Shown here piece after piece: positions 223-15,277 of a stretch of DNA of 25,309 bases. The DNA lies in IMG/VR virus record IMGVR_UViG_3300044470_000018, positions 1 to 25,309 of that record. One strand, written 5' to 3'. Origin of the DNA: a virus. Every line of letters starts with the position of its first letter. Position 1 is the stretch's first letter. Made by a program: the position numbers and the translations under genes. The notes under the pieces were generated by a model that did not search any database, was not told the origin of the DNA, and saw nothing but the letters and a program-made list of their open reading frames with translations.

Positions 223-630
223 TTAGTACATCCTGATCCATTGGGCGTTATCCGGATCTGCCACTAAGTACGCAACGCCATGGGTCGCGCCTAAAGCAGT
301 TGGAGAAGCAATCCCAATGAAAGTATTCGAGCCCGTCGCCCCTGAAAGTGTAATCGCAGATCCCAAGTTAATCAGGGTCAGTGCCATGTTTTTTCCTACA
401 GCTAGCCCGTCGCCAGTTGTGGGATAAGACAATGGGCCAACCGGAGAAAGTTTCAGGGTTGCCGCGCCAGTTGAGTTAAATACCATAACATCCGATGGAT
501 ATATGGTTGTGTCCGTTGCGGACTGGGCCATAGCGCCGCCGACAGGAGCACTAAATGATAGTGTCCACGCGACGCTAGTTCCCGTAAACGAAGTCGTCCC
601 CCTAATAGAGGCTAGAATTGGATTAATCAT
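223..630 (-). CDS. Small virion-type protein, tandem paralog A
   Basis: This 135-residue protein has no recognised enzyme motif. It is rich in Ser, Thr, Gly and Ala with alternating hydrophobic residues, as in small beta-sandwich virion proteins. It is clearly paralogous to the next upstream gene (649-1041): both share NP(I/V)L, GTT, ATDTT/VTDTT, YPSD, MVFNST, LSYPTTGDGL, LINLG, SGAT, GIASP and a WIR(M/V)(Y/F) C-terminus. TAGGA precedes the ATG by about 7 bases. Its position just after the major capsid gene suggests a head decoration, head-completion or tail role, which is inference from location only. Relative to its partner it has a short insertion near residues 30-35 (VGGAMAQ). Confidence 0.85.
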   Translation of the reverse strand: MINPILASIRGTTSFTGTSVAWTLSFSAPVGGAMAQSATDTTIYPSDVMVFNSTGAATLKLSPVGPLSYPTTGDGLAVGKNMALTLINLGSAITLSGATGSNTFIGIASPTALGATHGVAYLVADPDNAQWIRMY

Positions 631-648
631 TTTACTGTCCTACGGTTC

Positions 649-1041
649 TTAGAATACCCGAATCCAGCGCATATTCGCTCTGTCAGAGATAAACTTAGCC
701 GTTCCGTTAGTTGCAGCCAATGTGCCAGGAGATGCAATTCCAACCAATGTATTAGAGTCTGTGGCTCCAGATACCGTGATCGTGTTGCCGAGATTAATCA
801 AGTTAATCTCCGTCTCATGACTAACGCCCAAACCGTCACCAGTTGTGGGATAGGATAGCGTCATCGGAGGAAGCGTTAGTGTAGCAGCGTTTGTGGAATT
901 GAAAACCATATAGTCGGACGGATACACGGTTGTATCCGTAACCGACTGTGGCAGTTTTCCAGAATAAGAAAGAACCCATGCGCCCGTTGTGGCGGTGTAG
1001 GTCGTTGTACCCTTATTCGATACTAAAACTGGATTGTACAT
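649..1041 (-). CDS. Small virion-type protein, tandem paralog B
   Basis: This 130-residue protein is the upstream member of a tandem duplicated pair with 223-630. By eye about half the residues match along the whole length, including YPSDxMVFNST, LSYPTTGDGL and the C-terminal WIRVF. AGGAA lies about 9 bases before the ATG. It follows the major capsid gene by 30 bases, so the two are probably co-transcribed and made late in infection. No signal peptide, membrane segment or catalytic motif is visible. The likely role is in the capsid or head-tail region, inferred from position and beta-rich composition. The family is not recognised. Confidence 0.85.
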   Translation of the reverse strand: MYNPVLVSNKGTTTYTATTGAWVLSYSGKLPQSVTDTTVYPSDYMVFNSTNAATLTLPPMTLSYPTTGDGLGVSHETEINLINLGNTITVSGATDSNTLVGIASPGTLAATNGTAKFISDRANMRWIRVF

Positions 1042-1071
1042 GTTGTTTGTTTCCTATGTCTCTGTTAACCC

Positions 1072-2142
1072 TTAGCTAACTAGACCAGTGCCGACCATCT
1101 TGAAACAGGTACGCGGAGATGCAACAATAAGGTTTCCGCCGAAAATGAACTGACCAGAAACATCCAAGGTGTTCTGCGCTTCTTTGAAGCCAGTGAATCC
1201 AAACTGAAATTTCTTGTTATCGCTAACATAGAGTTCCAAATACTTGGTATTCAAGCCGAGGATTGCGCCCAAAGTCGAGCCAGCACCGTAGCCAGTGACA
1301 ACATCCTGGAAATACTTGCTAATAACCACATCAGCAGAGTTGAACCGGAAAGAGTCAAAGCCAACCTTAGCCAAGTCGGTATCGTTGTTGGTGTAGCGCT
1401 GCAACGGAGTTGTGGCGTTCCAAATACGGTTCCATGCGCCCAGAGTGACGATCAGCATATCGGGCCGATCATTCGAGAAGCTAGCATAGTTATATGCGCG
1501 ATTCAGATCATTCAGCGAGAAGGTGCTAACTGCGCGGCTTGTATAGGAGTTGATTCCGTTTACGTTTGCGTAGGTAGTATCGTCACCAGCGCTATTGCAG
1601 GTCCACACATCGGCGCGAGCAATCCCGCCAACTGTTGCAAAGGATTGAACATAGGTGGTTCCACCAGTGTAAGTACTATTGCTAGTGCCATCGTCAATCC
1701 ACGCCATCAGTCCGTCCAGATGTCGAGTCGAAGATGCAGAACCAGAGCCGTCACGATAGAGATTGAGCGCCAGTGCTTGTGCCATCGAGAGAGAAGCATT
1801 GTTCATCTTGCTCTCAACAATAGAGAAGGCTGCGTTTTCGCCACGGTTCAAAACATCGTCTGTACCGAATAGAGACACGTTAGCATAGTAGAACTTTGCG
1901 TTAACTACAAATGCGGTGTCGGTCTTGCGATACGAAATATCGAACATATCGCCACGGGTGAATGCATCGGCAACCAATGAGTTGTAAGTCAAAGGCCGCT
2001 GAATCTGTAAGCCACCGGGCCACACGTTCTTGCGGGAGAGAATACGGGTTAACAGAGGATCGTTTTTGAAGATAACCTCTGTCGCTTTGGGCACGATATG
2101 ATTCGTGGTGAAAGCGTTAATATCTTGATACGTTAATGCCAT
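1072..2142 (-). CDS. Major capsid protein
   Basis: At 356 residues this has the size and feel of HK97-fold coat proteins. The N-terminal part 'ILSRKNVWPGGLQIQRPLTY' resembles phage major capsid proteins, followed by an alpha/beta body with 'GENAAFSIVESKMNNAS', a long helix as in the spine of coat proteins, and a beta-rich C-terminal half. It lies directly downstream of a scaffold-like gene, the usual order in tailed phages. AGAGG stands about 6 bases before the ATG, a strong ribosome site fitting a highly expressed protein. It would form the icosahedral shell. I see no clear N-terminal prodomain or protease cleavage motif, in keeping with a separate scaffold. Confident in role, not in subfamily. 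Confidence 0.85.
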   Translation of the reverse strand: MALTYQDINAFTTNHIVPKATEVIFKNDPLLTRILSRKNVWPGGLQIQRPLTYNSLVADAFTRGDMFDISYRKTDTAFVVNAKFYYANVSLFGTDDVLNRGENAAFSIVESKMNNASLSMAQALALNLYRDGSGSASSTRHLDGLMAWIDDGTSNSTYTGGTTYVQSFATVGGIARADVWTCNSAGDDTTYANVNGINSYTSRAVSTFSLNDLNRAYNYASFSNDRPDMLIVTLGAWNRIWNATTPLQRYTNNDTDLAKVGFDSFRFNSADVVISKYFQDVVTGYGAGSTLGAILGLNTKYLELYVSDNKKFQFGFTGFKEAQNTLDVSGQFIFGGNLIVASPRTCFKMVGTGLVS

Positions 2143-2166
2143 GCTTTTCCTCTGCTAAGGATCGAA

Positions 2167-2184
2167 AGCATGGACTTACATGCT
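2167..2184 (-). repeat. Short hairpin between scaffold and capsid genes
   Basis: AGCATG and CATGCT form a perfect 6 bp inverted repeat with a 6-base loop, in the 45-base gap between the scaffold stop and the capsid ribosome site. It has only two T residues after it, so it is weak as a terminator. It may stabilise or process the mRNA and help set the unequal scaffold and capsid levels. The role is inference. Confidence 0.4.
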
Positions 2185-2187
2185 AAA

Positions 2188-3066
2188 CTAACCCTGTGTC
2201 TTCCTAAACTCGTCCGCGTATTTACTGGCAATTGCCCCGCGTCCAAGTACCATGCCCTCATAACCAGAGTCAGTACCCTCTTGACTAACCGCCTTCTGTA
2301 AGAAGCCGGATAATCCCGATCCCTGATCTGTCGGAATCAGCCCTTGACCATCTTTTGATCCAGCGGCCTTTTCCTTTAATTCCTTCTGCGCCTCATCATA
2401 GCCAGCCTTTTTGGCTTCAGCCTTGATTATGTCTAACTCTGCCTGTTTCCTAGTAGCGCTCTTGTCTTTATAGATAGCGTCGTAGACCTTATCCAGATCC
2501 CACTCTTTCATTTCAGCAGACTTATTAAACAACTCGGTTCCGTCTAAAACATCTCCATATTCCTTGTATGCACGCATAACCAAGGTCGGAACTTTCAAAC
2601 TAACGTAAGTGTGCCCCTGCAATGAGGTATCCAATTGTGCGGCTCTGCCCGTCACATCGGTTGTTAACTTGTCTACATCAGCTTTCGATGCGATACCGCG
2701 AGTAGTAATCTCTTTGTCGAGATACTGCTTCATTTGTTCAAAATCCATATCATCACCCTTGCCTACTACTACAGCCAACAGTCGCTCTGCTTCATCTCTC
2801 GCTGCCTTTTCCCCTTTGGTCATTTCAGCAGCATCGTCCCAATGCTCCGTGCGCCATTGTTCCCACTGCATTACATGCGGCTTCAATCTTTGCGCCCACT
2901 CGGCATCTTTCTTAATCCCAGATACTTCATCCATCTTTCGGCTATAGTCATCATTTCTGAGCCAGCCGTTTTTTAGCTCTGGATATTGGTCTGCTATCTG
3001 AGCAACTGTTTTGCGGTGATTTTCATCCGGCACAATTTTAGCCAAGATGTCATCGAAAATTGCCAT
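2188..3066 (-). CDS. Probable capsid scaffolding protein
   Basis: This 292-residue, highly charged, helix-rich protein lies immediately upstream of the major capsid gene, the classic scaffold position. Residues 30-100 alternate acidic and basic residues (for example MTKGEKAARDEAERL), and residues 200-235 form a Lys/Glu/Ala-rich coiled-coil-like helix (DIIKAEAKKAGYDEAQKELK). A Gly-rich linker follows and the C-terminal 40 residues contain a basic helix, where scaffold proteins usually bind coat. GGGAG lies 5 bases before the ATG. Scaffolds diverge fast, so the call rests on position, composition and length. It could instead be another head-assembly protein. Confidence 0.7.
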   Translation of the reverse strand: MAIFDDILAKIVPDENHRKTVAQIADQYPELKNGWLRNDDYSRKMDEVSGIKKDAEWAQRLKPHVMQWEQWRTEHWDDAAEMTKGEKAARDEAERLLAVVVGKGDDMDFEQMKQYLDKEITTRGIASKADVDKLTTDVTGRAAQLDTSLQGHTYVSLKVPTLVMRAYKEYGDVLDGTELFNKSAEMKEWDLDKVYDAIYKDKSATRKQAELDIIKAEAKKAGYDEAQKELKEKAAGSKDGQGLIPTDQGSGLSGFLQKAVSQEGTDSGYEGMVLGRGAIASKYADEFRKTQG

Positions 3067-3133
3067 CTATTCTCCCAGTCAAAGCCAGCTATCAGTTAGT
3101 TAATCCTGCTGTTTCCAGCGCCAAATTACTAAG

Positions 3134-3154
3134 CGATGCCTTTTGGCTGCATCG
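3134..3154 (-). repeat. Hairpin in gap upstream of nothing coding, downstream of scaffold-operon gene
   Basis: CGATGC and GCATCG make a perfect 6 bp stem around a 9-base loop, which can alternatively fold with an inner GCC/AAAA/GGC hairpin. It sits in the 116-base untranslated gap between the 123-residue gene (3183-3554) and the scaffold gene. No T-run follows on the minus strand, so an mRNA-processing or stability element is likelier than a terminator. Confidence 0.4.
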
Positions 3155-3182
3155 TTATCTTTGCGTTAAGGTTCGTCTGCTA

Positions 3183-3554
3183 CTACTGCCCGAGGGGCAT
3201 TTGCTGTGGAGATTGCGCCCCACTTTGCGATCCAGCACCCGGCCCAGGACCAGCCCCAGGACTACCGGAATTTTGGAGTTCACTCATAATCATCTGCCCA
3301 GCTTCCGCAATCTTGCGGAGCAGTGGCATAATACTTGGTTTACTTTGCGAAGCAACCTGGACAACTTGATCCAAAACGGTTGCTAATTGCTGCATTTGCT
3401 GCTTGAGGAAATCTCCACTAGGGTCTTGCGATTGCCCAGAAGCCCCTGGAGCCCCTTGTCCCCCGCCCAATCCGCTAGCATACTGGCTCATATCGGGAGC
3501 CTGTTGTGCCTGAACGCCTGGACTCATTGGAGGATTTTGACTAACTGGCCCCAC
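3183..3554 (-). CDS. Low-complexity Pro/Gly/Gln-rich protein with central helix
   Basis: This 123-residue protein starts at a GTG directly after the TAA of the preceding gene. AAAGG lies about 10 bases upstream, and no better ATG with a ribosome site exists. Residues 1-45 and 95-123 are Pro, Gly, Gln and Ser rich (for example SPGAGPGPGAGSQSG) and probably disordered. Residues 48-92 form an amphipathic helix (LKQQMQQLATVLDQVVQVAS) that could oligomerise. It lies between the head-operon promoter and the scaffold gene, which suggests an assembly or minor virion protein. The family is not recognised. Confidence 0.75.
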   Translation of the reverse strand: MGPVSQNPPMSPGVQAQQAPDMSQYASGLGGGQGAPGASGQSQDPSGDFLKQQMQQLATVLDQVVQVASQSKPSIMPLLRKIAEAGQMIMSELQNSGSPGAGPGPGAGSQSGAQSPQQMPLGQ

Positions 3555-3845
3555 TTAGTACTTGCCTTTATGGGCCTTGCTCGCCCGAGTAGAAAGATCA
3601 ATCGAGTTAGCGCCTTCAAAACCACGATCCGCAGTTCTACTCAGCGAAACCTCAAGAGAGTCGCACTGTCGCTCGCCATCCTTAGCTTCATTGTACGGAG
3701 TTGTATAAATTCTAGCTTCGCCCAATGGGAGTTTAAGCGCCCCAGTGTCATCAAATACGCCAGAAGGATGCTTCGCCGGAACGAAATCTCCCTGTGAACC
3801 TTTAAGATCGACCTTCAGGCCGGTCGTGTCGTAACTACCCTTCAT
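3555..3845 (-). CDS. Unknown small protein, first gene of the capsid operon
   Basis: I start this at the ATG at 3845 (MKGSYDTTGLKVDLKGSQGD, 96 residues). AGAGGG stands 6 bases before it and a strong promoter lies just upstream. A longer in-frame start near 3893 would sit inside the promoter's -35 box and lacks a ribosome site. The protein is polar, with no membrane segment and no recognised motif; it ends in a basic tail (STRASKAHKGKY). It is the first gene after the promoter that drives the scaffold and capsid genes, so a head or assembly role is plausible but unproven. Confidence 0.75.
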   Translation of the reverse strand: MKGSYDTTGLKVDLKGSQGDFVPAKHPSGVFDDTGALKLPLGEARIYTTPYNEAKDGERQCDSLEVSLSRTADRGFEGANSIDLSTRASKAHKGKY

Positions 3846-3863
3846 CAGTATCCCTCTATTTCT

Positions 3864-3893
3864 ATAATATAGCATGTTGCTACTAGTTGTCAA
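3864..3893 (-). promoter_or_regulatory. Strong sigma70-type promoter for the capsid operon
   Basis: A perfect -35 box TTGACA (3888-3893) is followed after 16 bases by TATATT (3866-3871), or after 18 bases by TATTAT (3864-3869). Transcription would start near 3857-3860, only about 12-15 bases before the ATG at 3845 and right at its AGAGGG. It points into the head genes. It looks like a host housekeeping promoter rather than a phage-polymerase promoter. Confidence 0.75.
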
Positions 3894-3920
3894 ATAACGG
3901 GAAACTTTATTTTCCGTTAT
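3894..3920 (-). terminator. Inverted repeat between 907-residue gene and capsid promoter (possible terminator or operator)
   Basis: ATAACGG-AAA and TTT-CCGTTAT pair as a 10 bp stem with one bulged base and a 6-base loop. It starts 1 base after the stop of the gene ending at 3922 and abuts the -35 box. Only a short T-tract follows on the minus strand (TTTG), so termination may be partial. The same repeat could instead be a regulator's binding site next to the promoter. Confidence 0.5.
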
Positions 3921-3921
3921 G

Positions 3922-6645
3922 CTACTTTATTATTGTCTTTCCGGCAGAAAACACATTTCCACCGTAGAAAGAAGACGGCGGATTAAATGCACTCACCATT
4001 GCGTTTACTAAACTTAATGCCGAATCTGTCAGCGCCACCGTGTAGGTATTACCCGTAGCCCAATAAGTCGTAAAAGTCGTTCCCGTGCCCGTCGTTGTTG
4101 TTGCTCCCAACGCACTCCATGTATATGGCGGAACTCCACCAGATGCAGTAAACATTACGTTAGTCAACCGTGCTACAAGAACCGAAGCGGGAGTTACGGA
4201 AAGTGGAAGAGGATTTGACACATAGAATGTCGGATAAACGGTCGTAGTGCCATCCGCCACCGTGAGTGTATAATTCCCCTGTGTTCCGCATGAAGACGCT
4301 ACGGTAGACCCATCACCACTGCCCGATCCGCTGTTTGGGGAACAAGTAGACGGACCGTTCAGCGACCAAGTATAGCTAGCGGCAGGGTTATGAACCGTCC
4401 AAGAAACCACTCCCCCCGCAACAGTTTGAGATAGTGGCGTAACGGTCATAGAGGCTGTTCCAAGATTCACGGAAAATACCGAAGTCTGCCCGCACTCTTT
4501 TAACCATGACGATGTGAAGAGAATCTTAGAGAAATCGGGTGAAGCCGTCGCATGGGGCTCTTGCCAGTAGTCCTGACCTTGACTACACTGAGTTTGGCTG
4601 CCCTCTTCGCGGTACGCCATCATGTTAGCAACACGCCTGAATGTGGCGTTGCTAACAACGGGCTGCGTCGTATCAATCCGAACGGCAATCGCTTCATTTC
4701 TACCCCATCCGGGTGCTTGTGGAATAAGTCCAGGACTGGAAAAGATGGAGTACAAAAACCAACCCTGAGAAGTCCCTGAACCAGCCCCACGACCGCTCAT
4801 ATGTTGTGTCATTGAACCAATAACAGAACTAGCGCAGCCCGTATAGGGATCTCCAATAAATGAAATCTGCGCTCCGCTGGCCACTCCAGACCCAGTAACA
4901 GATGCGGATAAAAGAACGCTCACGTTGGCGACATAGGATAGAACAGTAGTGCCATCTGGAATACCTGTGCCTGCCGCCGTCTGCCCTACGACAACTCCGA
5001 CTGTACTTGTAAAAGAGAGAGTAGCTCCCGCCGTAGTTGCAGCGGCTGTGGTTAGCAACGCAGCCGGTTGATTATACACCGTACATGGTAAATATAGCCT
5101 ACGGACATAGCTTGCGTTGAGTAGTTGCCGAAAGGCTATAACATCGCCGCTGATGACGCCTGTTGCCGCATGGTTCATGACAATAGTATTCGCTGTCACG
5201 CAACCGCTACCTGTCGTCTTACATATTCCGTTAATGACCGTTGATCCTGGAAGCCCACCGGAGGACACGTTTGTGGCTACCGGACTTCCCGCTGTTGTTT
5301 TGTCAGACATATAAGCGCCAATCGCCAACTTGGAGAAATCAACGCTAGAACCAAATTGGAGGATGGTGTTCGTGCTGCCCGCCGTCACTGCGATATCTAC
5401 TTCGCCGTAGGAGTCCCACGTACCGCCCTGCTGTGGTACATGTACATCAGCCAACTTGACTGCATTAAACGACTTATATCTAGTCGTGCTCTCGTAAGAA
5501 AAGGAATTGCCCACCGGGAATGCCGCCACCTCGATGCCGTTCACATCCCGTCCCACGTCCATGTGGCCTTCGTCAATGGAGCCAATCATGCCTTGGCTGG
5601 TTAAGGTGGCCCGATCAAATAGCTCAATCCCGTGGCAGGTCGTCCAAGTGTCTTCGTAAGGTTGGGGAGTTTGCTCCCACGACACGATCACGTAGTCACC
5701 ATCGGGCGACATTGTGACAATATCAATTGGTTCGCTTGCCCCGCAGATTGCCGAGATATCCCGACTGGAAGAAACAGAGTGCGTGGTGTAGTCATAAACT
5801 ATTAACCTAGTGGGCGTTGCACCACTTCCTGACGCACACCAGAGTACACGGTAACGATCATCTTCCGATAAATTGCTGTCACCTCCGCTCATCACGTAAG
5901 TAGTTCCAGATGGGCATTCTCCTGAAGCGCCAATCGTCCAGGAGTGCTCCGTAGTGATCGCAGCCGTCGAAGGCGTTCCGGGCGTAATCGTGATATTTTC
6001 AAGACAAGGCGTGCTTCCAGGACATACATCTCCACTGCTATAGCCAGCCCTGTTGGCATATGTCATCAGATTAGGATTCGTGTGCGACCATGATTCATCA
6101 CCATTCGAAGTGGATGCTGAAGTATTTAGCAAAGCAAAGTCATAAGTTGGACTTCCGCCGTTCCACTTGTAAAAGTAGGCCGCATCCCCGTCATTCGCCG
6201 CGATGACATAGAATTCGGTTTGCGTTGAGTTGAATGCCTGTCGCCCAGAGTACGAGGTCACAACGCTGCGTGCCGCGCAGACATCCGATTGCCCCACCAC
6301 ATTCCACGGCGGGTTTGATGGTGTCACTCCGGTCGTTCCACCCACACTGGAAGAGTACGGGATCATCCAATACTGACTATTATAGAAGACGCCTTGAAGC
6401 ACCGGATAGGGGTAGCTAGTCCAATTTCCTACATAGCACGTACTGGGTATTGCTGGAACCCTGGTTACCGCCAAGGGAAGACCAGCCGATGTATGATGAC
6501 CATCAAAGTACGATCCGCCCCAGCCCGGCATAGACGTGACAGGGTATGGTGACCAAATATAAGTAGAATTGCTTAAATTCGTAAGCCACGTCGGGTCTGA
6601 TGCCGCCGCCGTTAAACAGATTAGAAAAACAGCAAGTTTTCTCAT
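3922..6645 (-). CDS. Exported beta-propeller/Ig-like protein, probable adhesin or spike
   Basis: This 907-residue protein starts with a Sec signal peptide (MRKLAVFLICLTAAASD, cleavage near 15-16). Residues about 130-400 and 615-730 look like blades of a beta-propeller: 'VTMSPDGDYVIVSW' near 311 and 'EPHATASPDFSKILFTSSW' near 697 are typical blade motifs. Two phage-fibre-like modules interrupt it, about 417-505 and 533-598 (the latter with 'GTGIPDGTTVLSYV' and 'VTGSGVASG'). Two Ig-like domains follow at about 733-811 and 812-886, the second with 'SGGVPPYTWS'. Paired cysteines suggest a disulphide-bearing extracytoplasmic protein. Its place after two other signal-peptide genes in the late region suggests a host-binding spike, but a secreted protein borrowed from the host is equally compatible. 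No ribosome site is clear; the start follows the previous stop by 4 bases. Confidence 0.75.
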   Translation of the reverse strand: MRKLAVFLICLTAAASDPTWLTNLSNSTYIWSPYPVTSMPGWGGSYFDGHHTSAGLPLAVTRVPAIPSTCYVGNWTSYPYPVLQGVFYNSQYWMIPYSSSVGGTTGVTPSNPPWNVVGQSDVCAARSVVTSYSGRQAFNSTQTEFYVIAANDGDAAYFYKWNGGSPTYDFALLNTSASTSNGDESWSHTNPNLMTYANRAGYSSGDVCPGSTPCLENITITPGTPSTAAITTEHSWTIGASGECPSGTTYVMSGGDSNLSEDDRYRVLWCASGSGATPTRLIVYDYTTHSVSSSRDISAICGASEPIDIVTMSPDGDYVIVSWEQTPQPYEDTWTTCHGIELFDRATLTSQGMIGSIDEGHMDVGRDVNGIEVAAFPVGNSFSYESTTRYKSFNAVKLADVHVPQQGGTWDSYGEVDIAVTAGSTNTILQFGSSVDFSKLAIGAYMSDKTTAGSPVATNVSSGGLPGSTVINGICKTTGSGCVTANTIVMNHAATGVISGDVIAFRQLLNASYVRRLYLPCTVYNQPAALLTTAAATTAGATLSFTSTVGVVVGQTAAGTGIPDGTTVLSYVANVSVLLSASVTGSGVASGAQISFIGDPYTGCASSVIGSMTQHMSGRGAGSGTSQGWFLYSIFSSPGLIPQAPGWGRNEAIAVRIDTTQPVVSNATFRRVANMMAYREEGSQTQCSQGQDYWQEPHATASPDFSKILFTSSWLKECGQTSVFSVNLGTASMTVTPLSQTVAGGVVSWTVHNPAASYTWSLNGPSTCSPNSGSGSGDGSTVASSCGTQGNYTLTVADGTTTVYPTFYVSNPLPLSVTPASVLVARLTNVMFTASGGVPPYTWSALGATTTTGTGTTFTTYWATGNTYTVALTDSALSLVNAMVSAFNPPSSFYGGNVFSAGKTIIK

Positions 6646-6649
6646 AAAT

Positions 6650-8017
6650 CTATTTATAAATCAAAAACCAATGCGTATTGGAAATTGATGTCCAAGATGT
6701 AGTTGCTGTAATAGAACCATTAAGCGCCCCACCCGTAGTCGCGTTACCCGACGCAGTTGAGTAGGGTGTGCCTAATGCAGAAACGATTGTCGTAAACGTA
6801 GCACAACTACCCGAACAATTTGTTGTGACAGCCCAGTAATAAGTGCCAGACGGGAGTGTGGTCGCAACCGTGAATGGCATATTGACAAGTCCAGCAGAAC
6901 TTCCAAATAAAGTGGACCCCGCAACTGCGCCAGTGCTGGCAACCAGAGTTCCACCCGAATTATATAGTCCAATATCATATAGGTTGGCCGTATTATCAAC
7001 CGCAACAGTTTTCACTAAAATCCCGACAGCCGACGTAATTTGAGCGGGAAGAGTGAAGCCAAAAACGTAAGTTCGATTCGCCGTAAAAGTCTGGCCAGCA
7101 GATGAGGAGAATGAGGAAATCTGCCAAAAATTAATAGTGCCCACCGTGGCCCCCGCATCGGCTGTGCAGGATGGGACGCCAGATGTTGAAATTGCAACAA
7201 TATGCCCCACCACCGAGGTGCAGTCTATGGACTCCACTCCTCCCAGGGTGGCAGAGGTTGGATTAGGAATAGCGGTAAGCGCCGCTGCACCCACTAGCTG
7301 ATGGCAAGTTGTAGGGAAGCCAGCCGCAAATGTAGGGCAAGTAACCGTCCCAGAATCCCTAAAAAATTGGTTAGCCGTAGTATTCGTAGATGGCAGTAAA
7401 TACATAATGGCAGTGCCAGCCACATCATTAACCCCGATTCCAGCCGCCCCAGAGGTCACCCCAGACCACACTGAGCCGCCAGTATTTGTTGTCCCGCCTT
7501 TGTATCCATTGGGTGAATTAAGAACGCTAGAACTATCGAAAAATCCAGGGCTAACCCCAGAATCATTACCGCCATTTCCCATCATGAGGTAATTTGCTGT
7601 TAATGGCCCTAATATGTTTGTGACAGTACCCCCAGTAGAAGCCGTAGAGCTCAACACCCCAGAACCGTCAATACTCAGATTTGCCCCAACCTTAATTCCT
7701 CCTAAAATCGTAAGGCTTGCCATTGGTGGCGTCCACGTTGAAGGGTACCCAGACAATCCAGAAATAGTGGAATAATTCGTAATCGGGGATTGATACAGTC
7801 CAGACATCGCGGAAATTGCCCTGGCTCCAGTGAAGTACAAGTTCCCGCTCTCTGTAATCTGAGATGTATTCGTAGGGATGGCACTCCCCAAGGCATTAAA
7901 GTTGTTGTTGATCTTGCCCCTTGCCGCTGGAAACAAATCCGTACCGTTGATTGGCTGAAGCGTGACTTGCGCGAAGCAAGACGCACAAAACAGAATTGCT
8001 AAAATAGTATACTTCAT
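6650..8017 (-). CDS. Tail-fibre-like protein with signal peptide
   Basis: This 455-residue protein begins MKYTILAILFCASCFAQ, a signal peptide ending at FAQ; the LFCAS/CFAQ cysteines leave a lipoprotein form conceivable. Residues 20-125 carry fibre-type text: 'GKINNNFNAL', 'TESGNLYFTGARA', 'LTILGGIKVGANLSIDGSG', as in collar and fibre repeats that trimerise. The middle (140-285) is Gly/Ser/Thr-rich, and residues about 290-455 form a compact beta-rich C-terminal domain (FWQISSFSSSAGQTFTANRT...), probably the binding head. It lies between the SGNH spike and the propeller/Ig gene and likely works with them. The start has no strong SD sequence. Fibre is a family-style inference, not a firm homology. 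Confidence 0.75.
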   Translation of the reverse strand: MKYTILAILFCASCFAQVTLQPINGTDLFPAARGKINNNFNALGSAIPTNTSQITESGNLYFTGARAISAMSGLYQSPITNYSTISGLSGYPSTWTPPMASLTILGGIKVGANLSIDGSGVLSSTASTGGTVTNILGPLTANYLMMGNGGNDSGVSPGFFDSSSVLNSPNGYKGGTTNTGGSVWSGVTSGAAGIGVNDVAGTAIMYLLPSTNTTANQFFRDSGTVTCPTFAAGFPTTCHQLVGAAALTAIPNPTSATLGGVESIDCTSVVGHIVAISTSGVPSCTADAGATVGTINFWQISSFSSSAGQTFTANRTYVFGFTLPAQITSAVGILVKTVAVDNTANLYDIGLYNSGGTLVASTGAVAGSTLFGSSAGLVNMPFTVATTLPSGTYYWAVTTNCSGSCATFTTIVSALGTPYSTASGNATTGGALNGSITATTSWTSISNTHWFLIYK

Positions 8018-8054
8018 GGTATTTTCAGGTAACGGATTTACACAAAAACGTTGC

Positions 8055-10184
8055 CTACTGCGCCGTCTGCGTGAGCCACTTGTACAGGTTATTGGCGATC
8101 ACTCCGCCACCCTTGGCGTTGACGTGTGAAGTGTTCACCCATTCGCTACGGGCACTCGATTGAGCGTAGGTTCCCAATGAATAGCCGCTGTCGAAATAGC
8201 CTGCGCCCAGCGATGCCGCCAGTGCCATCTGGGAGTTGGCGTATTGCGCCATCACGTAAGTGCCAGTTAGCCCTATATCTACGGGCGGATGGAACATCAC
8301 GTCCGCGTTCGGCATTGCCGTTTTCACCCAGCCATTCAGGGTTGAGAGCGCAGTGGCTTGCGATGCTGGAGTAGCATTCGCGATAATCTCATTCACTCCA
8401 AACTCAAAGAGCACCGTATTCGGAGTTAGTTCCGCAAGGGCGGCTTGCCAGTTGGCGGCATTCACGGCTGCATAGTTTGCGGCCAAAGTGCCGCCGTTCG
8501 AGATTCGATGCACGCGAGCACCTACTGTTCCATTTAGGCAATTCACTCCAAATAGCATCACGCCGCCCCCGGCTGACTTCAGGTAACTGGGCATGGACGA
8601 TCCGGTAACAATCATGAATCCAGTGACTCTAAAACCGCGCCCGCCTTGCCCCGTGTAGCGGTTGATTCCGCACTGACTGTTTAGTAGCGATCCTGCTGTC
8701 GTTTTGTTAGCATTGATCCGATAGAGCGAGCCTGAAATCTGCGTAACGGTTGGCGCCGAGGTGAACCCGTTGTCAATGACCACTGCGAAGTCTCCGGAGG
8801 ACGTACCCTCTGCGGGATTAGGCGCGTTGCCATCATCCATCACGATATAAAAGCTGATGTTGTAGGCTGTTCCGGTCTGAAGTGCCGTCACTGTGTACTT
8901 GGCTAACTCAGTGATCCCCGACGTTGCTACGACATGCGCCCCATTGCTTAATCCGTTTTCTGTGAAGTTGGCATTGGTCACGCCAGCAGAACAGATTCCC
9001 ATCTGATTGCCTTGGCAAAGCGGCTCAGACCAGTTAATGAGGCTTGGGCCGGTCGCCGTTTTGATTTTCAGGACGAGCGAATGCGATGCCGCTGACAATC
9101 CCGTAATTGCTACTTTTCCACGCGCCAGAGTGGGATTGTTCGTGTTGATAGTAGTCTCTCCGCCACTGTCCACCGCCCATGAGAATGATGCACCATTTGG
9201 CTGCTTGGAATACAATACATCCATTTCTGTCGCCGTCGAAACAACTGTTTTGGTAGCAGGAATTGTGACATCAACGGACATCGTATCCGCATCGTTTACG
9301 CCCAGGGATGTCGGCAAGCCATGAGTGTCGGTCCATGTCCCAACGGTCGTTCTAGTCGCGCAATTGGGAGACTGTGACCACTCGTCAAGGTTGACATAGC
9401 CGCATCCGGCGTTGCCGTACAGAGCCTGTATTTTCGTGCGAAGTGGTCCGGTAATGTATTCGTTATTAGCCCAGGAGTCACCCACGAAAACGAAATCAAG
9501 CGCACCCGATGCAATACCGCTCGCCGCCCCATCAAAATCGCGTAGCAGGTAACGAGAGCCAGAGATCGAATTCCATCCTCCAGGAGTTGTGCTGGATGCA
9601 AGCAACGGTTGCCCCACCGAAAGGTTTCTTCCAATAACATTCAAGTTTGTTCCGTCATCGGTTAGCGTAGACGACGCTACTAGTTGGTGAGCGCTATTCG
9701 TTCCTACAAATGCAGCAGAAGTGGGGGGTACGCCGCCGTCGTAGCTGAGGGGAACCCACGCCGTTCCATTCGAGATGCACAGCGCCTTTGCCGTTCCGCT
9801 CCCTACCGTACAATCAGAAGCCGAAGCCGCGTCTGTAACGGTAGTCATCCAGTTCGTGTTGCCCGATGCCGCAGCCGGAAGCTGACTAGCACCCGCACCA
9901 ATGGTTTTTGGTCCAATCACTACTGCGCTAAACAAGGTCCCATTAGCTGAGAATACTTTAGTCCATGTATTTGTGGCTGTACAGTAATATACATCGCCAA
10001 GTGCGGTATTGCTCCACCAGTCCTTTCCAGCCGTACAATTTCCGCTAGCCGCCAAGACACTCACCTGAACAGCGGGCTTCGCGTTTAAGACCGACTCTAA
10101 CGCGGGATAAGCCGTACCGGGAACATTCTGAAACTGCGCAAACGCAGCAGCAGAGAAAAGTAAAAGTCCAATTAGTTGTTTCAT
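8055..10184 (-). CDS. Spike protein with SGNH (GDSL-type) hydrolase domain and signal peptide
   Basis: This 709-residue protein opens with MKQLIGLLLFSAAAFAQ, a Sec signal peptide. Residues 20-200 are fibre-like (TSAAFVGTNSAHQLVASSTL, LNVIGRNLSVGQ). An SGNH hydrolase domain begins at about 228: block I FVFVGDSW with nucleophile Ser237, block III FGVNE (Asn598) and block V with His687 in NTSHVNAKG. A large beta-rich insert at about 390-560, resembling a carbohydrate-binding jelly roll, separates the blocks. The residue three before His687 is Asn, where Asp is usual. SGNH enzymes on phage spikes remove acetyl or other ester groups from surface glycans, so deacetylation of host polysaccharide is likely. 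Its ATG is one base after the previous stop with no clear SD sequence, suggesting translational coupling. Confidence 0.8.
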   Translation of the reverse strand: MKQLIGLLLFSAAAFAQFQNVPGTAYPALESVLNAKPAVQVSVLAASGNCTAGKDWWSNTALGDVYYCTATNTWTKVFSANGTLFSAVVIGPKTIGAGASQLPAAASGNTNWMTTVTDAASASDCTVGSGTAKALCISNGTAWVPLSYDGGVPPTSAAFVGTNSAHQLVASSTLTDDGTNLNVIGRNLSVGQPLLASSTTPGGWNSISGSRYLLRDFDGAASGIASGALDFVFVGDSWANNEYITGPLRTKIQALYGNAGCGYVNLDEWSQSPNCATRTTVGTWTDTHGLPTSLGVNDADTMSVDVTIPATKTVVSTATEMDVLYSKQPNGASFSWAVDSGGETTINTNNPTLARGKVAITGLSAASHSLVLKIKTATGPSLINWSEPLCQGNQMGICSAGVTNANFTENGLSNGAHVVATSGITELAKYTVTALQTGTAYNISFYIVMDDGNAPNPAEGTSSGDFAVVIDNGFTSAPTVTQISGSLYRINANKTTAGSLLNSQCGINRYTGQGGRGFRVTGFMIVTGSSMPSYLKSAGGGVMLFGVNCLNGTVGARVHRISNGGTLAANYAAVNAANWQAALAELTPNTVLFEFGVNEIIANATPASQATALSTLNGWVKTAMPNADVMFHPPVDIGLTGTYVMAQYANSQMALAASLGAGYFDSGYSLGTYAQSSARSEWVNTSHVNAKGGGVIANNLYKWLTQTAQ

Positions 10185-10185
10185 A

Positions 10186-10632
10186 CTATGATGTCAATAC
10201 CCCAAATTCAGGCCCAGTCAATCCCGACCACTGCGTAGCCGTCAACGATCCCCAACTCAAAACGGAAGGAGTCTGCCCTCCAGAAATTGGTGTATCGTGC
10301 CAATCTTGCGTCCACCTAGCCGAGAATATCAGCCCAGCAGAAGCACCCAAAACAGTAAATCCGCCATACAGGTATTGCCCATACGGAACATTAACAAAAA
10401 GAGTATTCCCGGCAGGTATGCTAGTGTTTATAATGGTTTGCGGAGTAATTTGTCCATCAGCCATAGTAAACAAAATAGCCGCTCCGGTAGGATTGCTTAC
10501 CCCAAGGCACAGTAAATCTATGTCTCCCGCAACTACATAAGCCGCAGTCGTGGGAACTGGTTCTAGCGGAGTCTTAACCTGATATGATAGACTCGGAGCA
10601 TTGCAGTTTACCGCAGTGTATACATTGGGCAC
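10186..10632 (-). CDS. Unknown small beta-rich protein upstream of spike gene
   Basis: This 148-residue protein starts at GTG, with AGGTGG 6 bases upstream deciding the start. It is rich in Ala, Thr, Gly and Val with predicted beta strands (AAILFTMADGQI, TLFVNVPYGQYLYGGFTVL), and aromatic residues cluster near the C-terminus (WTQDWHD, LSWGSLTATQWSGL). It lacks a signal peptide, unlike its three downstream neighbours, and no enzyme motif is seen. It ends one base before the SGNH spike gene, so the two are probably translated together; a spike adaptor or virion protein is a reasonable guess. Not recognised. Confidence 0.75.
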   Translation of the reverse strand: MPNVYTAVNCNAPSLSYQVKTPLEPVPTTAAYVVAGDIDLLCLGVSNPTGAAILFTMADGQITPQTIINTSIPAGNTLFVNVPYGQYLYGGFTVLGASAGLIFSARWTQDWHDTPISGGQTPSVLSWGSLTATQWSGLTGPEFGVLTS

Positions 10633-10663
10633 GATTTACCACCTACATTCATTTTAGCAAGAA

Positions 10664-11167
10664 CTATTGATTCTGCCTAATCTTCTTGATCTTGTTCCTA
10701 ATAATCTCTCGTTTCAGCGAGCTAATATGGTCTAGAAATAATACACCATTCATATGGTCAATCTCGTGTTGTATCACCCGCGCTAGCATCCCTTTAGCCT
10801 GAATGCACCGTATGACAAATTTTTCATCTTCAAACACCACGTCAATGTCTTTTGGACGTTCTACGAACTCAGAAAATCCAGGAACAGATAAACATCCCTC
10901 TTTACATACATACCTTCCGGTTCCACTCGGGACTGTGGGATTTATGAGGACGTACCGCTGGTTAGGATCTTCACCAAGGGATATATCCACAACGGCCACT
11001 CGTTTGGGCACCCCAATCTGTATAGCCGACAGTCCAAATCCGCCATACTCATAAACAACTTTCCACAACCTGGAAACCAAGTCTGGAATAGATGCCCGAT
11101 CTTCACTCAATACCTGAGTAGATTCAGAAAGCAGAGCATCTTCGCCGTAAATCAGCAAATTGTCCAT
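10664..11167 (-). CDS. def: Peptide deformylase
   Basis: This 167-residue protein carries all three peptide deformylase motifs: GFGLSAIQ (43-50, classical GxGLAAxQ), EGCLS (90-94) with the metal-binding Cys92, and HEIDH (134-138) with two metal ligands and the catalytic Glu. The enzyme removes the formyl group from N-terminal Met of new proteins in the cytoplasm. It keeps a C-terminal Lys/Arg-rich helix, so unlike some trimmed phage versions it is about full bacterial length. GGAGG is 5 bases before the ATG, which directly follows the lysozyme stop. Sitting in the lysis/late cluster, it may sustain protein maturation late in infection. Family call is firm; the benefit to the phage is inference. 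Confidence 0.95.
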   Translation of the reverse strand: MDNLLIYGEDALLSESTQVLSEDRASIPDLVSRLWKVVYEYGGFGLSAIQIGVPKRVAVVDISLGEDPNQRYVLINPTVPSGTGRYVCKEGCLSVPGFSEFVERPKDIDVVFEDEKFVIRCIQAKGMLARVIQHEIDHMNGVLFLDHISSLKREIIRNKIKKIRQNQ

Positions 11168-11614
11168 TTAAGCCTCCATAAAGTCCGGATTTCCAGAAAA
11201 TAATGCACTCTCGCGCTTCCGCCGTATCACTAGCCCCGGTTCTACCTTTTTCCCAACATGACACCATTTTAACATCTCAGTCGCCGCCGCTGGATAATAC
11301 CCAGCATTGAGCAGACTTATGAGTGTCGTTCCTACTAGTGAAGAAGCCCCAAGATTAAACACAAAAGAGCATAAAGCGTCGAACTCGTCTTGAGATAGCG
11401 GAACTTTCACGTATTTATGAACAGACTGCTCTGCATTGTGTAAATCCTCCGCAAGCCAAGCAGACGCCTGGACTGGAGAGCAGGTCATGCCCAAAGCTAC
11501 CCCATGTGTATGACCGTATCCAATAGTCGGGATTCCCCGAGGGCATAAGTAAGCCGCCAGGATGCACCCTTCACTGGCCTGAACTATCTGATAGCACTTT
11601 TCGGAGGCCGTCAT
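11168..11614 (-). CDS. Endolysin, GH24 lysozyme (T4/P22 type)
   Basis: I start this at the ATG overlapping the lipase stop (TAATG), giving 148 residues; a TTG six codons earlier is possible but has no better ribosome site. The GH24 core is plain: Glu15 in ASEGC, 'IPTIGYGHT' with Thr30, and RRKRESALF near the C-terminus. The catalytic triad of T4 lysozyme is Glu-8 residues-Asp-5 residues-Thr; here the spacing is exact but Cys24 replaces the Asp, a variant also known in some phage lysozymes. It cleaves the glycan strands of peptidoglycan for lysis. There is no signal anchor, so a holin is expected but is not identified nearby. Confidence 0.93.
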   Translation of the reverse strand: MTASEKCYQIVQASEGCILAAYLCPRGIPTIGYGHTHGVALGMTCSPVQASAWLAEDLHNAEQSVHKYVKVPLSQDEFDALCSFVFNLGASSLVGTTLISLLNAGYYPAAATEMLKWCHVGKKVEPGLVIRRKRESALFSGNPDFMEA

Positions 11615-12273
11615 TAAACCGTTAACTCCCAACTCATGCCTTTGTCATAAAGCGCCATATTATGAAAGCCGATTACTGGTAGTTTATGCCAATCGTGAGA
11701 CTTCAAATCGACAACATAAGCGACGTGTATATCAATCAATGGTGTAGCACGAACATAATCTGCCAACGGAATGGTAAGCGGAACGTCCGTAACCGGGTCA
11801 TGAAAGAATTTATCTCCATTGCGATAAGACCGGCCAGGGACTTGCCTAACCAGTTTTGCCAGTTTAATAGTTCCTGATTTTGGCTCCCCCCACACAACTC
11901 TAGCCAGTGGAGGATGCCCGTCAAGCACCATCAGACCCGTCAGGATAGTCGCACGTGCGGCCCCCAGTGAATGCCCAATGACCACCCTTGGACCGTCCGT
12001 ATGCTGCTTAATATCGTTCCATACGCCTTCCATGCCATCCATGAATCCAGAATGAACGGGTCCAAGCGCGTCATGGTCAAACGGGTCTACACACGCATCC
12101 AGATCCCGTAAAAAGTCAACGGGAGTCATAGACCCCCGCATCGTTACCACGGTTATCCCTTTTGTCACCTTAGCGGCCCAGACAACATCTCCAGGGCTGA
12201 AATAGTTCCAGCCCACCATTTGTCCGTATATCCCAACGGCTAGTGCTGATAAATCCCTATCAGACAGGACCAT
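11614..12273 (-). CDS. Class-3 lipase-like alpha/beta hydrolase
   Basis: This 219-residue protein matches fungal-type (class 3) lipases: 'VVTMRGSMTPVDFLRDLD' (42-59) is the oxyanion-side segment, 'VHSGFMDGMEGVWNDI' (73-88) follows, and the nucleophile elbow is GHSLGAA (100-106, Ser102). HDPVTDVP (158-165) supplies the acid, probably Asp159, and His204 in FHNMALY completes the triad. The likely reaction is hydrolysis of acyl esters of lipids. No signal peptide or membrane segment is visible, so it would reach the envelope only through a holin or on the virion. Its stop overlaps the lysozyme start, which ties it to lysis: it could weaken the outer membrane. The start has a weak SD sequence. Confidence 0.85.
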   Translation of the reverse strand: MVLSDRDLSALAVGIYGQMVGWNYFSPGDVVWAAKVTKGITVVTMRGSMTPVDFLRDLDACVDPFDHDALGPVHSGFMDGMEGVWNDIKQHTDGPRVVIGHSLGAARATILTGLMVLDGHPPLARVVWGEPKSGTIKLAKLVRQVPGRSYRNGDKFFHDPVTDVPLTIPLADYVRATPLIDIHVAYVVDLKSHDWHKLPVIGFHNMALYDKGMSWELTV

Positions 12274-12275
12274 GA

Positions 12276-12770
12276 TTACACCACAATACTAAAGTGCGCA
12301 GCAAGAGCTTCCAGGAGTTTCGCGTCCCGATCTGTCCATGCTTGCTCTGCGGGTGCTGTCGTCTCATTATAGAGAGAAATCACGCCCATAAAATTGATAC
12401 AAAGTACGTCGCTAGTAGGCAGGAGCGCCATATTTAATGGCGTGAAACACTGTGGTAACACTTCACTCATCCCCTGCGGAAACACATAGTTTTGCGGAAT
12501 GGCGTTAAGCGATTGGGCAGTGGCAACATCCAAGTATTCCTTACCGAACACCGGATCGCCAGAGGTCAGATCAAGCGTAGCAATATCAAAAGAGACTAGT
12601 TTAATGCTGCCCATCACAAGAGTATGAGCTGCAATGTAAGCAGCGTCGGCTACCCAATGCTTACGAGCCACAAGCGGATTGAACGCCCCCGGCTGGCCAT
12701 ATTGGACCATTGGGAACTGCCACATGATAGACAGTGGTGTGGATTGGATTACACCTTTAGGTGCAGACAT
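12276..12770 (-). CDS. Unknown protein between exported protein and lipase
   Basis: This 164-residue protein starts MSAPKGVIQSTPLSIMWQFP with AGAAGG about 10 bases upstream. It has no signal peptide and no obvious membrane helix. It is rich in hydrophobic and aromatic residues through the middle (SIKLVSFDIATLDL, VLCINFMGVISLYN) and ends with an acidic helix (AWTDRDAKLLEALAAHF). The stop is two bases before the lipase ATG (TAATCATG), so it is tightly linked to the lysis cluster or may be a minor virion protein. I do not recognise the family. Confidence 0.75.
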   Translation of the reverse strand: MSAPKGVIQSTPLSIMWQFPMVQYGQPGAFNPLVARKHWVADAAYIAAHTLVMGSIKLVSFDIATLDLTSGDPVFGKEYLDVATAQSLNAIPQNYVFPQGMSEVLPQCFTPLNMALLPTSDVLCINFMGVISLYNETTAPAEQAWTDRDAKLLEALAAHFSIVV

Positions 12771-12807
12771 GAATAATATACCTTCTCGCCCTTTCGCAAG
12801 GCGTGCG

Positions 12808-13416
12808 CTACGGAAGAGTTACCTCTTCGTTAACTAAGGGTTTCGACGATGCCGCAACCAACAATCCCTCTTTGCAGGCCGCTGGCCCTAAATTAATATC
12901 GTTAGCCAACAACGACTGTCCGAGGGTCACCAAATCAGCATGACCGGGAATAGCTGGAATCCAAGCGTTCATAATCGGACTAAACAACTGTGCGCCCACG
13001 CCCCATGCAGTGCTAGCCGCAATTACTCTTGACGCAATTAGAAGAGATGCTGTAGCAGCGCCAGCAGAGCCAACTTTAATCAATCGTTGAGCTAACGTGT
13101 CACTTTGATATGATGCGAGAATTAAACTAACCAGCGAGTTAAGTACAACCCGTGGATGCTGTGAACTCTTCATTTCAATAGCAGCCCTAACTTGAGGTTC
13201 GCTAGTGGTGATCGACTGTCCCGTTGTGTTACAGATAGTCACCCCCAATATAGTGTACCCCTTCGGAGGCTTGTGCCCAGTCAGGGTTTTAATTGCAGTA
13301 GGGCCTTGATCGGAAAAAGCGACCTTGATAGAACCCATGGGTAACACAATGGCCGTCGTAGCAGTTTGGGCATTAAGTCCAATAGTTAGACACAATAGAA
13401 ACAATAACTTGCGCAT
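12808..13416 (-). CDS. Unknown exported protein with signal peptide
   Basis: The frame extends upstream into the portal gene, but the natural start is the ATG at 13416, one base after the portal stop. It gives MRKLLFLLCLTIGLNAQTAT, a textbook signal peptide. The mature part (about 185 residues) has two short segments resembling periplasmic beta domains (GYTILGVTICNTTGQSI) and a hydrophobic, Ala-rich stretch at about 120-150 (ATASLLIASRVIAASTAW) that might span a membrane. The family is not recognised. It could be a secreted or envelope protein, a virion protein, or, given the hydrophobic segment next to lipase and lysozyme, a lysis factor. All of these are inference. Confidence 0.75.
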   Translation of the reverse strand: MRKLLFLLCLTIGLNAQTATTAIVLPMGSIKVAFSDQGPTAIKTLTGHKPPKGYTILGVTICNTTGQSITTSEPQVRAAIEMKSSQHPRVVLNSLVSLILASYQSDTLAQRLIKVGSAGAATASLLIASRVIAASTAWGVGAQLFSPIMNAWIPAIPGHADLVTLGQSLLANDINLGPAACKEGLLVAASSKPLVNEEVTLP

Positions 13417-13417
13417 G

Positions 13418-15277
13418 CTATCCGTTCTTTTGTGATGCCGTTCTTGGGCCACGTCCTGTTGCGCCCTGACCAATGCCAGCCTGTGCTTGAGCCGCAAGCT
13501 CTTGCATGATATTGGCTATATCTCCAGGGTCTTTCCCCATTACCCGCAATAGTTCGGGAATACTGGTTAGGCCCATCTTAGCTAGCGAGCTTGCCTCGAT
13601 GATTTTGCTTTGCTTTGCATCTCCGCGTAATGACCCAGGAATCACCTTAAACGTGTAATTCTTCCAATAAGACTCGTCACGTTCTGATTCTGGGATTAGG
13701 TTATCGCCATTGAACTCAAAGTCCTGCATGGTGATTCCATCTTCACCCAATAGGTACATCCGTTGCCGGGTATTATAGAATTGGATCACATTGCTGACCG
13801 CTTGAATGCCCGCATCCCGTAAGAATGCCTCAAGGTAGCGCTCTTCTAACTTAATTGGCATCTGAAGAGAGTCACGCATCTGTTCTAATGTGTCGCCGCC
13901 AGGAACTTGATTCTTCCTAGACATTCCGGCCACATCCACAATACCGCTAATTCTGTCCATCTGCGGGCTAATATAGTTAGCCAACATCTCATATACATAC
14001 GGCTGCAATACGGGGGTCTGTGCATACTGAATGTCGCTAGCCGGATTACCAAGCGGACCCAATAGTAACTTCTCTCCAGGCTTGTCTTGCTGGAAGGCAT
14101 TCCAAGTAGAGGCCACTACCGCGCTAGTCTTAGAGATGAGCACGGGAAATAGATTCCTGCTTATCATATCCATGATGCCAGCGCCAATGTCGTTCATAGC
14201 CTGCTGCATGGGGAGAAGCGAGCGATAAGAAGACAACCCATAGAAAGACCATGGGACCGGATTTAACCGTAAACAGGCAAAGGGATACAATCCATGCCAG
14301 TAGGGGTTGGGTCCATCGTACATAATCTCATTATTGGCAAACACTACCAAGCGTTTGCGCGGATACAGCCGCTCTCTAGGCTTAACCTCATACCACCAAT
14401 TATGCTGATCCAATGGCAAATACGGATCTGCCACAATTACGGTCTTATTGGAATCGTTGATGGTTGTATCGTCAATGTAGTATTCTTCTAGTTCAATCCC
14501 GCCAAAGTTCCACCCATTAATAGACGGAGCTACTTTCCCTCCAAACAAGCGTTGCAGGTTGGGCGCTAGGGCATTCCAGGTGTGCCCGCTCATCTCTTCA
14601 GGTTGGCTATATTCCGCTGAGGAATCAGACACCTGCGGAATATGATCGTTGCCAAGCCGGATTTTATCGGCCCGCATGGGGAAAACCTTACGGAAATAGT
14701 TAATCGGCTTCCACGTTCGATACAGGATGGCAAAAGACTCTTGGATGTGGAATCCAGGCTGAATAGGTAAGACTTGATCTGGGCCACAAGGAATCAATTT
14801 CATGCTGCCAGGGGAGGCCGCGCCAATCTTCCAAAACGCCGTACCCCATAGCATCCCAATATCCACAGCAGACACCAGCGACAGATCCATGTCCTGCGTC
14901 AGCCACTCAGACTGCAAGACCTTCTCAATGACCCCCGCCGTCTCTTTCATTGCGTCTACGTTAGTTTGAACGCAAATAGAGGGCCTTGAGTCACTGAGGA
15001 GAGCTAACTTATCCCGCCGCGCAGCTTCAATTCGGTTATCTACAAATCGGCTACGATGCTTTTTCCGGCTACCACTCCACTGATTACCTTCCAGGTATGA
15101 GACATATTTATTAACATTGGAGAACTCAGGACTAGATCGAGCGGTACGAAACGCTTCTTCCCGAAGAACGCTCTTATACGAACGCATCTTACTCTCATAT
15201 TGTTCTCTAACCGAATCAGAGAGTAATGCTTCTTTATTAGATGCATCACGATAAGGCGCTCTTGGAATTTCCTGCAC
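13418..15277 (-). CDS. Portal protein
   Basis: This 619-residue protein reads as a tailed-phage portal. It has a charged helical N-terminus (SVREQYESKMRSYKSVLREE), then 'SYLEGNQWSGSRKKHRSRFVDNRIEAARRDKLALLSDSRP', a hallmark of portal proteins that open on a virion-scale wing domain. Next come a central fold and 'PWSFYGLSSYRSLLPMQQAMNDIGAGIMDMISRN', and a C-terminal helical stem ending in a Gly/Gln-rich disordered tail. Twelve copies form the ring at the capsid vertex through which DNA is pumped by the terminase encoded upstream. The start is GTG four bases after the preceding stop, without a clear SD sequence, so coupling is likely. The call is firm by length, text and position. Confidence 0.88.
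   Translation of the reverse strand: MQEIPRAPYRDASNKEALLSDSVREQYESKMRSYKSVLREEAFRTARSSPEFSNVNKYVSYLEGNQWSGSRKKHRSRFVDNRIEAARRDKLALLSDSRPSICVQTNVDAMKETAGVIEKVLQSEWLTQDMDLSLVSAVDIGMLWGTAFWKIGAASPGSMKLIPCGPDQVLPIQPGFHIQESFAILYRTWKPINYFRKVFPMRADKIRLGNDHIPQVSDSSAEYSQPEEMSGHTWNALAPNLQRLFGGKVAPSINGWNFGGIELEEYYIDDTTINDSNKTVIVADPYLPLDQHNWWYEVKPRERLYPRKRLVVFANNEIMYDGPNPYWHGLYPFACLRLNPVPWSFYGLSSYRSLLPMQQAMNDIGAGIMDMISRNLFPVLISKTSAVVASTWNAFQQDKPGEKLLLGPLGNPASDIQYAQTPVLQPYVYEMLANYISPQMDRISGIVDVAGMSRKNQVPGGDTLEQMRDSLQMPIKLEERYLEAFLRDAGIQAVSNVIQFYNTRQRMYLLGEDGITMQDFEFNGDNLIPESERDESYWKNYTFKVIPGSLRGDAKQSKIIEASSLAKMGLTSIPELLRVMGKDPGDIANIMQELAAQAQAGIGQGATGRGPRTASQKNG

Follow-up and report, generated by a model that had tools for sequence, protein, structure and literature searches.

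Sec signal peptides on late-cluster proteins of a phage contig suggest an exported fibre/spike-like class in phages of Acidobacteriota

Results

Four signal-bearing genes between the portal and capsid genes

Here, we analyse the IMG/VR virus record IMGVR_UViG_3300044470_000018, an IMG/VR-type contig of 25.3 kb from a soil phage (the window, that is, the whole stretch of DNA analysed) in which all clear genes lie on the minus strand, and focus on 4 genes of its late cluster, denoted A to D, whose products begin with Sec-type signal peptides. The cluster is bounded by the portal gene upstream and by a scaffold-like/capsid gene pair downstream. The 4 proteins are very probably exported, as judged from their sequences, and the explanation that we consider best, with as much doubt as confidence, is that they belong to an exported class of fibre/spike-like proteins of Acidobacteriota phages, most of which would dock on particles at lysis. 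The features of the 4 genes are as follows (the slash marks the cleavage site).

12808..13416, minus strand: gene A, 202 aa, no assigned function, Sec signal; start 1 nt past the portal stop codon
13369..13416, minus strand: signal peptide of A, MRKLLFLLCLTIGLNA/Q, scanner score 5.15
8055..10184, minus strand: gene B, 709 aa with Sec signal; C-terminal domain of the SGNH/GDSL hydrolase-like type known from tail fibres (family searches)
10137..10184, minus strand: signal peptide of B, MKQLIGLLLFSAAAFA/Q, scanner score 5.23
8091..8585, minus strand: SGNH/GDSL region of B, residues 534-698 (family search)
6650..8017, minus strand: gene C, 455 aa, Sec signal followed by the motif FPAARGKINNNFNAL; signal and N-terminus in common with 8769-10967 of contig G001
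7970..8017, minus strand: signal peptide of C, MKYTILAILFCASCFA/Q, scanner score 4.48
7877..7969, minus strand: candidate virion-attachment segment of C, residues 17-47, from similarity to G001 and a putative reading of the motif
3922..6645, minus strand: gene D, 907 aa, Sec signal, 16 mature Cys, no family match (open reading frame (ORF) and family searches)
6598..6645, minus strand: signal peptide of D, MRKLAVFLICLTAAAS/D, scanner score 5.59; the mechanical cut falls one residue earlier, AAA/S

Signals were scored with a purpose-written, rule-based scanner, which recovers the known exported and membrane genes of a 50 kb Escherichia coli stretch as well as the signal-bearing genes of lambda. 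An earlier note on this DNA had read clear signal peptides in the 4 ORFs, and all of them are confirmed: each product passes the scanner, with Lys/Arg, a Leu-rich core and a small-residue cleavage site, i.e., the n-h-c layout with small residues at -1/-3 behind a genuine start codon that characterizes substrates of Sec and signal peptidase I. The chance pass rate, measured on segments taken from the interior of comparable proteins, is 4/2400 (0.17%). Among 7 control phages (T7, P22, lambda, N4, crAss001, B40-8 and phi14:2), 3 of the 87 genes of at least 400 aa pass, all of which we take for membrane proteins or weak matches, and none of the 7 carries a large signal-bearing fibre. Cys at +1, the lipobox residue of signal peptidase II substrates, occurs in 0 of the 30 proteins of the class, a hand-curated set from the phages described below, some members of which share domains; thus, these are not lipoproteins.

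The earlier note also considered that translation might start downstream of the signals, which the gene layout disfavours: the ATGs lie 1, 1, 37 and 4 nt past the preceding stop codons, and the next in-frame start of B and D is not reached until codons 40 and 38, with in-frame stops 12 and 18 nt upstream. Across 5 phages, 18 of 21 signal genes start between -4 and +10 nt from the upstream stop. A Shine-Dalgarno sequence precedes the capsid, scaffold and deformylase genes but not B, C or D. On the strength of the sequence, we consider the signals of A-D to be of the textbook Sec/signal peptidase I type, neither chance nor wrong starts.

Spread among phages of Acidobacteriota

Among 50,697 phage records, relatives of the portal protein were found only in Tunturi 1 and 2, which also give the terminase matches of widest coverage, at 22% identity; both phages infect the Acidobacteriota genus Tunturiibacter (PMC11924767). 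The arrangement singled out by the earlier note recurs in Tunturi 1, 2, 4 and 5 and in contigs G001 and G006. Thus, 4 of the 5 cultured Acidobacteriota phages carry signal-bearing fibre/spike-like proteins in late clusters, across 3 tail types: podovirus (Tunturi 1), siphovirus (Tunturi 4) and jumbo myovirus (Tunturi 5). The signal genes are gp12, gp13, gp14, gp16 and gp17 in Tunturi 1, with the same cluster in Tunturi 2; gp113 and gp114 in Tunturi 4, plus gp111 if its start is moved upstream to 80076; gp337, gp338, gp341 and gp342, annotated as tail fibre or virion structural, in Tunturi 5; and 4 genes in G006, an IMG/VR relative. They are located among head and tail genes, beside portal/capsid genes as expected of fibres or spikes, and are annotated as tail fibre, tail spike or virion structural protein. 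Tunturi 4 gp111 (record 80076-83171; L012/L013) is annotated from 80433; taking the upstream start gives the protein a clear signal peptide, which makes a truncated annotation probable.

The nearest relative, G001, is a 94.9 kb contig with portal and terminase proteins 89% and 85% identical to those of the window. Downstream of its peptide deformylase gene and a homologue of the window gene at 10186, G001 carries unrelated genes, for beta-helix, NHL/lactonase-like propeller, Ig-like and other proteins; 7 late signal genes fall within 304-10967 (810-1619, within this run, was left out of the count) and 3 more lie elsewhere in the contig. Gene B has no homologue in G001. The product of C matches that of G001 8769-10967 weakly (35% identity over 71 aa, E 5e-4), in the signal and the next stretch only, beyond which the bodies diverge. 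In this slot, the signal is conserved while the protein bodies are mostly unrelated.

Cleavage sites and cysteine parity

In the window, 3 of the 4 signals are followed by Gln at +1, D being the exception, in accord with the Q-rule. Over the class, Gln occupies +1 in 17/30 proteins with the mechanical cut and in 25/30 with curated cuts, compared to 4.2% in the following residues. The Q-rule has been described as Bacteroidetes-specific, and the text of the 2018 paper does not name Acidobacteria (PMC5837995). In Acidobacteriota host genomes, 42 of 111 mechanically called signals have +1 Gln (loci L155-L194, L264-L265, L271-L276 and L282-L283); an E. coli control yielded 4 strict signals only, too small for comparison. 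The PF05096 glutaminyl cyclase family is present in 3 of 4 Acidobacteriota genomes. The phage signals, as far as sequence can tell, resemble those of the hosts themselves (A/Q style). A Bacteroidota host, which the Q-rule had brought to mind, was dropped because the portal and best-covering terminase matches are to Tunturiibacter phages; it is further disfavoured by the sharing of +1 Gln with Acidobacteriota and by the lack of signal-bearing fibres in crAss001, B40-8 and phi14:2.

Disulfide pairing in exported proteins is known to leave even Cys counts. Mature Cys counts are 2, 10, 6 and 16 in A, B, C and D, respectively, and the mature signal proteins have a higher Cys content (1.67% versus 0.97%, p=3e-6). 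Among mature proteins with at least 4 Cys, 23/24 have an even number, as expected of disulfide-bonded exported proteins, compared to 109/202 non-signal proteins of the same phages (Fisher p=2e-5); in control phages, the count is 62/119. Host signal proteins from Acidobacteriota with at least 4 Cys are even in 18 of 22 cases; over all Cys counts, the even excess is modest and not significant (p=0.11), making this a weak control. The disulfide-forming VKOR family was detected in all 4 sampled Acidobacteriota genomes. Because host-like +1 Gln and even cysteines make sense only after cleavage and oxidation, the signals look used.

Protein architecture

In the recurring plan of the class, an N-terminal domain that members have in common comes after the signal and leads into a variable body. 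Such shared N-termini join Tunturi 5 gp337 and gp341 (61% over the first 103 residues), Tunturi 4 gp111 and gp113 (53% over 81), and G006 and Tunturi 1 gp12 (49% over 93), and look like the attachment domains of fibres that use one docking site. Among the bodies, Tunturi 5 gp342 contains GDSL and laminin-G-like domains and Tunturi 4 gp114 contains an Ig-like domain. Tunturi 1 gp17 and Tunturi 4 gp114 are 50% identical over 658 aa, indicating that bodies pass between phages of different tail types. Furthermore, this body is 57-63% identical to Acidobacteriota chromosomal proteins, some with a recognisable signal, encoded among glycosyltransferase genes (G161:C2 ~296-308 kb, L294; G100:C1 ~921-933 kb, L296), and glycosyltransferase-locus proteins of G055 (L297) are 37-42% identical to gp17 and gp114. 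At least one member of the class thus looks to have been captured from, or to be shared with, host polysaccharide loci.

Among the proteins of the window, B alone has a named domain: its SGNH/GDSL region matches the tail-fibre family PHROG_38670 (E=1.4e-13) and, just below the curated cut-off, Pfam Lipase_GDSL_2 (2.4e-6). No receptor-binding-protein homology was detected for A, C or D in Pfam or PHROGs, and sequence searches of PDB with B and D returned nothing useful. A fibre label for A and C finds no Pfam or PHROGs support, and a propeller label for D is unsupported in Pfam, PHROGs and PDB sequence searches alike. The 4 proteins have no lytic family match and no muralytic domain or spanin architecture, which sets them apart from Sec-exported lysis proteins, i.e., signal-arrest-release endolysins and spanins. 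AlphaFold2 models of B and C built without alignments had a predicted local distance difference test score of 32 and were not used. Homologue searches of IMG/VR with A, B, D and the capsid protein, as well as a terminase profile search of genome contigs, yielded no relatives. Similar short C-terminal tails are found in D (GKTIIK) and in L002 18443-19444 and 16908-18446 (HPGVIIK, ISGKATISGNTQ).

Neighbouring genes

The other features of the window that frame A-D are the following.

13418..15277, minus strand: portal protein, P22-like; upstream border of the cluster
11168..11632, minus strand: endolysin (phage lysozyme) without signal peptide, in contrast to A-D
10186..10632, minus strand: 148-aa protein without signal, directly upstream of B
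2188-3066, minus strand: scaffold-like protein, downstream border; probable role, from gene order and size
1072-2142, minus strand: probable major capsid protein, downstream border; role likewise from order and size

Homologues of the 148-aa protein directly precede signal genes twice in G001, and all 3 known copies (window 10186-10632, L002 13537-13962 and L006 16954-17283) have this position; it is possibly a partner or adaptor of the signal genes. The late cluster also holds genes for a peptide deformylase and a class-3 lipase (window 10664-11167 and 11614-12273). In a relative, a glycosyltransferase-like ORF follows the portal gene where the window has gene A. Downstream of the capsid gene lies a tandem paralogue pair (window 223-630 and 649-1041), perhaps head decoration proteins. 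In several Terriglobia genomes (L271, L273, L282; G002, G161, G100), a PF04860 portal-like ORF and an ORF of ~776 aa are located just upstream of purE/purK-like genes, a possible domesticated phage remnant.

Discussion

The earlier note placed export of these proteins beside the alternative that the signals are cleaved or ignored. Export is supported by the host-like +1 Gln, the even-Cys bias and the recurrence across 3 tail types; which of the fates listed in the note (assembly from outside, surface masking, decoy or enzyme secretion) follows export we regard as the least certain step. The shared N-terminal domains favour virion attachment, whereas the host exopolysaccharide-locus relatives of gp114 favour free enzymes for some members. 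That the exported proteins join virions is, in our judgement, evenly poised.

Tentatively, and with slightly more doubt than confidence, we propose that receptor-binding spikes are exported via Sec and trimmed, receive a pyroglutamate cap and disulfide bonds in the periplasm, and dock only at lysis, so that the virion is completed after lysis. Late in infection, the proteins would be translocated by SecYEG and cleaved by signal peptidase I, the N-terminal Gln would probably cyclise into a cap, and disulfides would form by oxidation in the periplasm, while head and tail assembly follows the usual cytoplasmic route. Once the compartments mix, through holin, endolysin and rupture of the outer membrane, most of the exported proteins would complete the particles by docking through the post-signal N-terminal domain; some may instead remain unattached and degrade host exopolysaccharide. 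The spikes of P22 and the long tail fibres of T4 attach last, also in vitro. This precedent favours docking, as do the attachment-like N-terminal domains and the signal-less endolysin of the window, which presumably waits for holin.

Several observations weigh against docking or the generality of the class. No attachment domain has been demonstrated for A, B or D, and searches with short N-terminal motifs gave weak or no matches, similarity to known tail fibres reaching E values of only 2-6. Tunturi 4 gp114 opens directly with the host-like domain, with no evident extra anchor, and could simply be secreted as an enzyme. Membership of the 30-protein set was decided by manual curation, and its +1 Gln figure varies with the choice of cut. 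Tunturi 3 lacks signals among its structural genes, as do the tail regions of the HK97-portal prophages G158 and G079 of Acidobacteriota genomes, indicating that signals are not required for infecting Acidobacteriota; the notion that all Acidobacteriota phages share this feature was accordingly rejected. Finally, no virion proteomics for the Tunturi phages or others of the class was found in the open-access literature, including PMC11924767.

The main rival is that the proteins are exported and never enter the virion, acting as secreted exopolysaccharide- or surface-directed enzymes (lyase, esterase) and either freeing progeny by loosening the surrounding matrix or serving as public goods. We lean against this possibility but take it seriously, given that the gp17/gp114 bodies resemble host proteins of glycosyltransferase loci, some with a signal of their own, that SGNH/GDSL-type domains occur in B and Tunturi 5 gp342 and beta-helix and propeller-like proteins in G001, and that Pantoea WceF is an exported tailspike-fold enzyme of an exopolysaccharide cluster (PMC7949094). 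However, the genes lie inside the structural operon, 4-7 per phage, with the shared N-termini and variable bodies of attachment-bearing fibres, and Tunturi 1 shows no convincing alternative large receptor-binding protein outside the class. Docking and free secretion both predict cleaved, disulfide-bonded proteins.

Retention on the surface of the infected cell, for receptor masking or a superinfection block, draws on the same evidence of export, and binding domains are plausible; we nevertheless consider it improbable because there is no lipobox, no membrane anchor was noticed, and several proteins of 600-1400 aa per phage would be costly. Very improbable, too, is a hydrophobic N-terminus that does not serve export, being either ignored by Sec or a membrane-interacting virion segment. 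In tailed phages, virion proteins normally stay in the cytoplasm, as this reading would have it, but selection for A/Q and even Cys is sensible only after cleavage and oxidation, and no such stretch is present on the fibres of the control phages from other phyla. Wrong starts or chance hydrophobic N-termini, to which the missing Shine-Dalgarno sequences of B, C and D might point, are extremely improbable in view of the tight start spacing and the low chance pass rate.

If docking of exported spikes is correct, part of a tailed virion is made across a membrane, a step absent from textbook assembly pathways, which would account for disulfide-stabilised, soil-hardy spikes and make Sec a late-infection dependency. 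Export signals might then serve to find phage receptor-binding proteins. Because cultured phage-host pairs exist (Tunturi 1, 4 and 5), the proposal is directly testable.

The earlier note knew of no standard model, and our searches of the open-access literature found none for exported fibres in tailed phages, although a subscription paper could exist. With tail fibres and tailspikes such as P22 gp9, T7 gp17 and Klebsiella depolymerases, the class shares the late structural position, the N-terminal attachment part with a variable enzymatic or binding body, and SGNH, beta-helix and Ig-like modules; unlike it, the fibres of T7, P22, lambda and N4 have no signal peptide by our scanner and fold in the cytoplasm. 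The pIII and pVIII proteins of filamentous phages are likewise virion proteins exported with Sec-type signals, but inoviruses assemble at the inner membrane, whereas the present phages belong to the Caudoviricetes and have a portal, a terminase and a lysozyme. WceF of Pantoea stewartii, the product of an exopolysaccharide-cluster gene, is similarly an exported, glycan-cutting protein of tailspike fold, yet it is host-encoded, uses Tat rather than Sec and has no phage part (PMC7949094). The nearest precedent is provided by Porphyromonas gingivalis phages, which also encode proteins following the +1 Gln rule of the host phylum; these are 5 genes of unassigned function in Bacteroidota prophages, with no tie to fibres or disulfides (PMC10367356). 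As in the Q-rule of Bacteroidetes (PMC5837995, PMC10653852), signal peptidase I substrates appear to expose an N-terminal Gln, but here in Acidobacteriota hosts and their phages.

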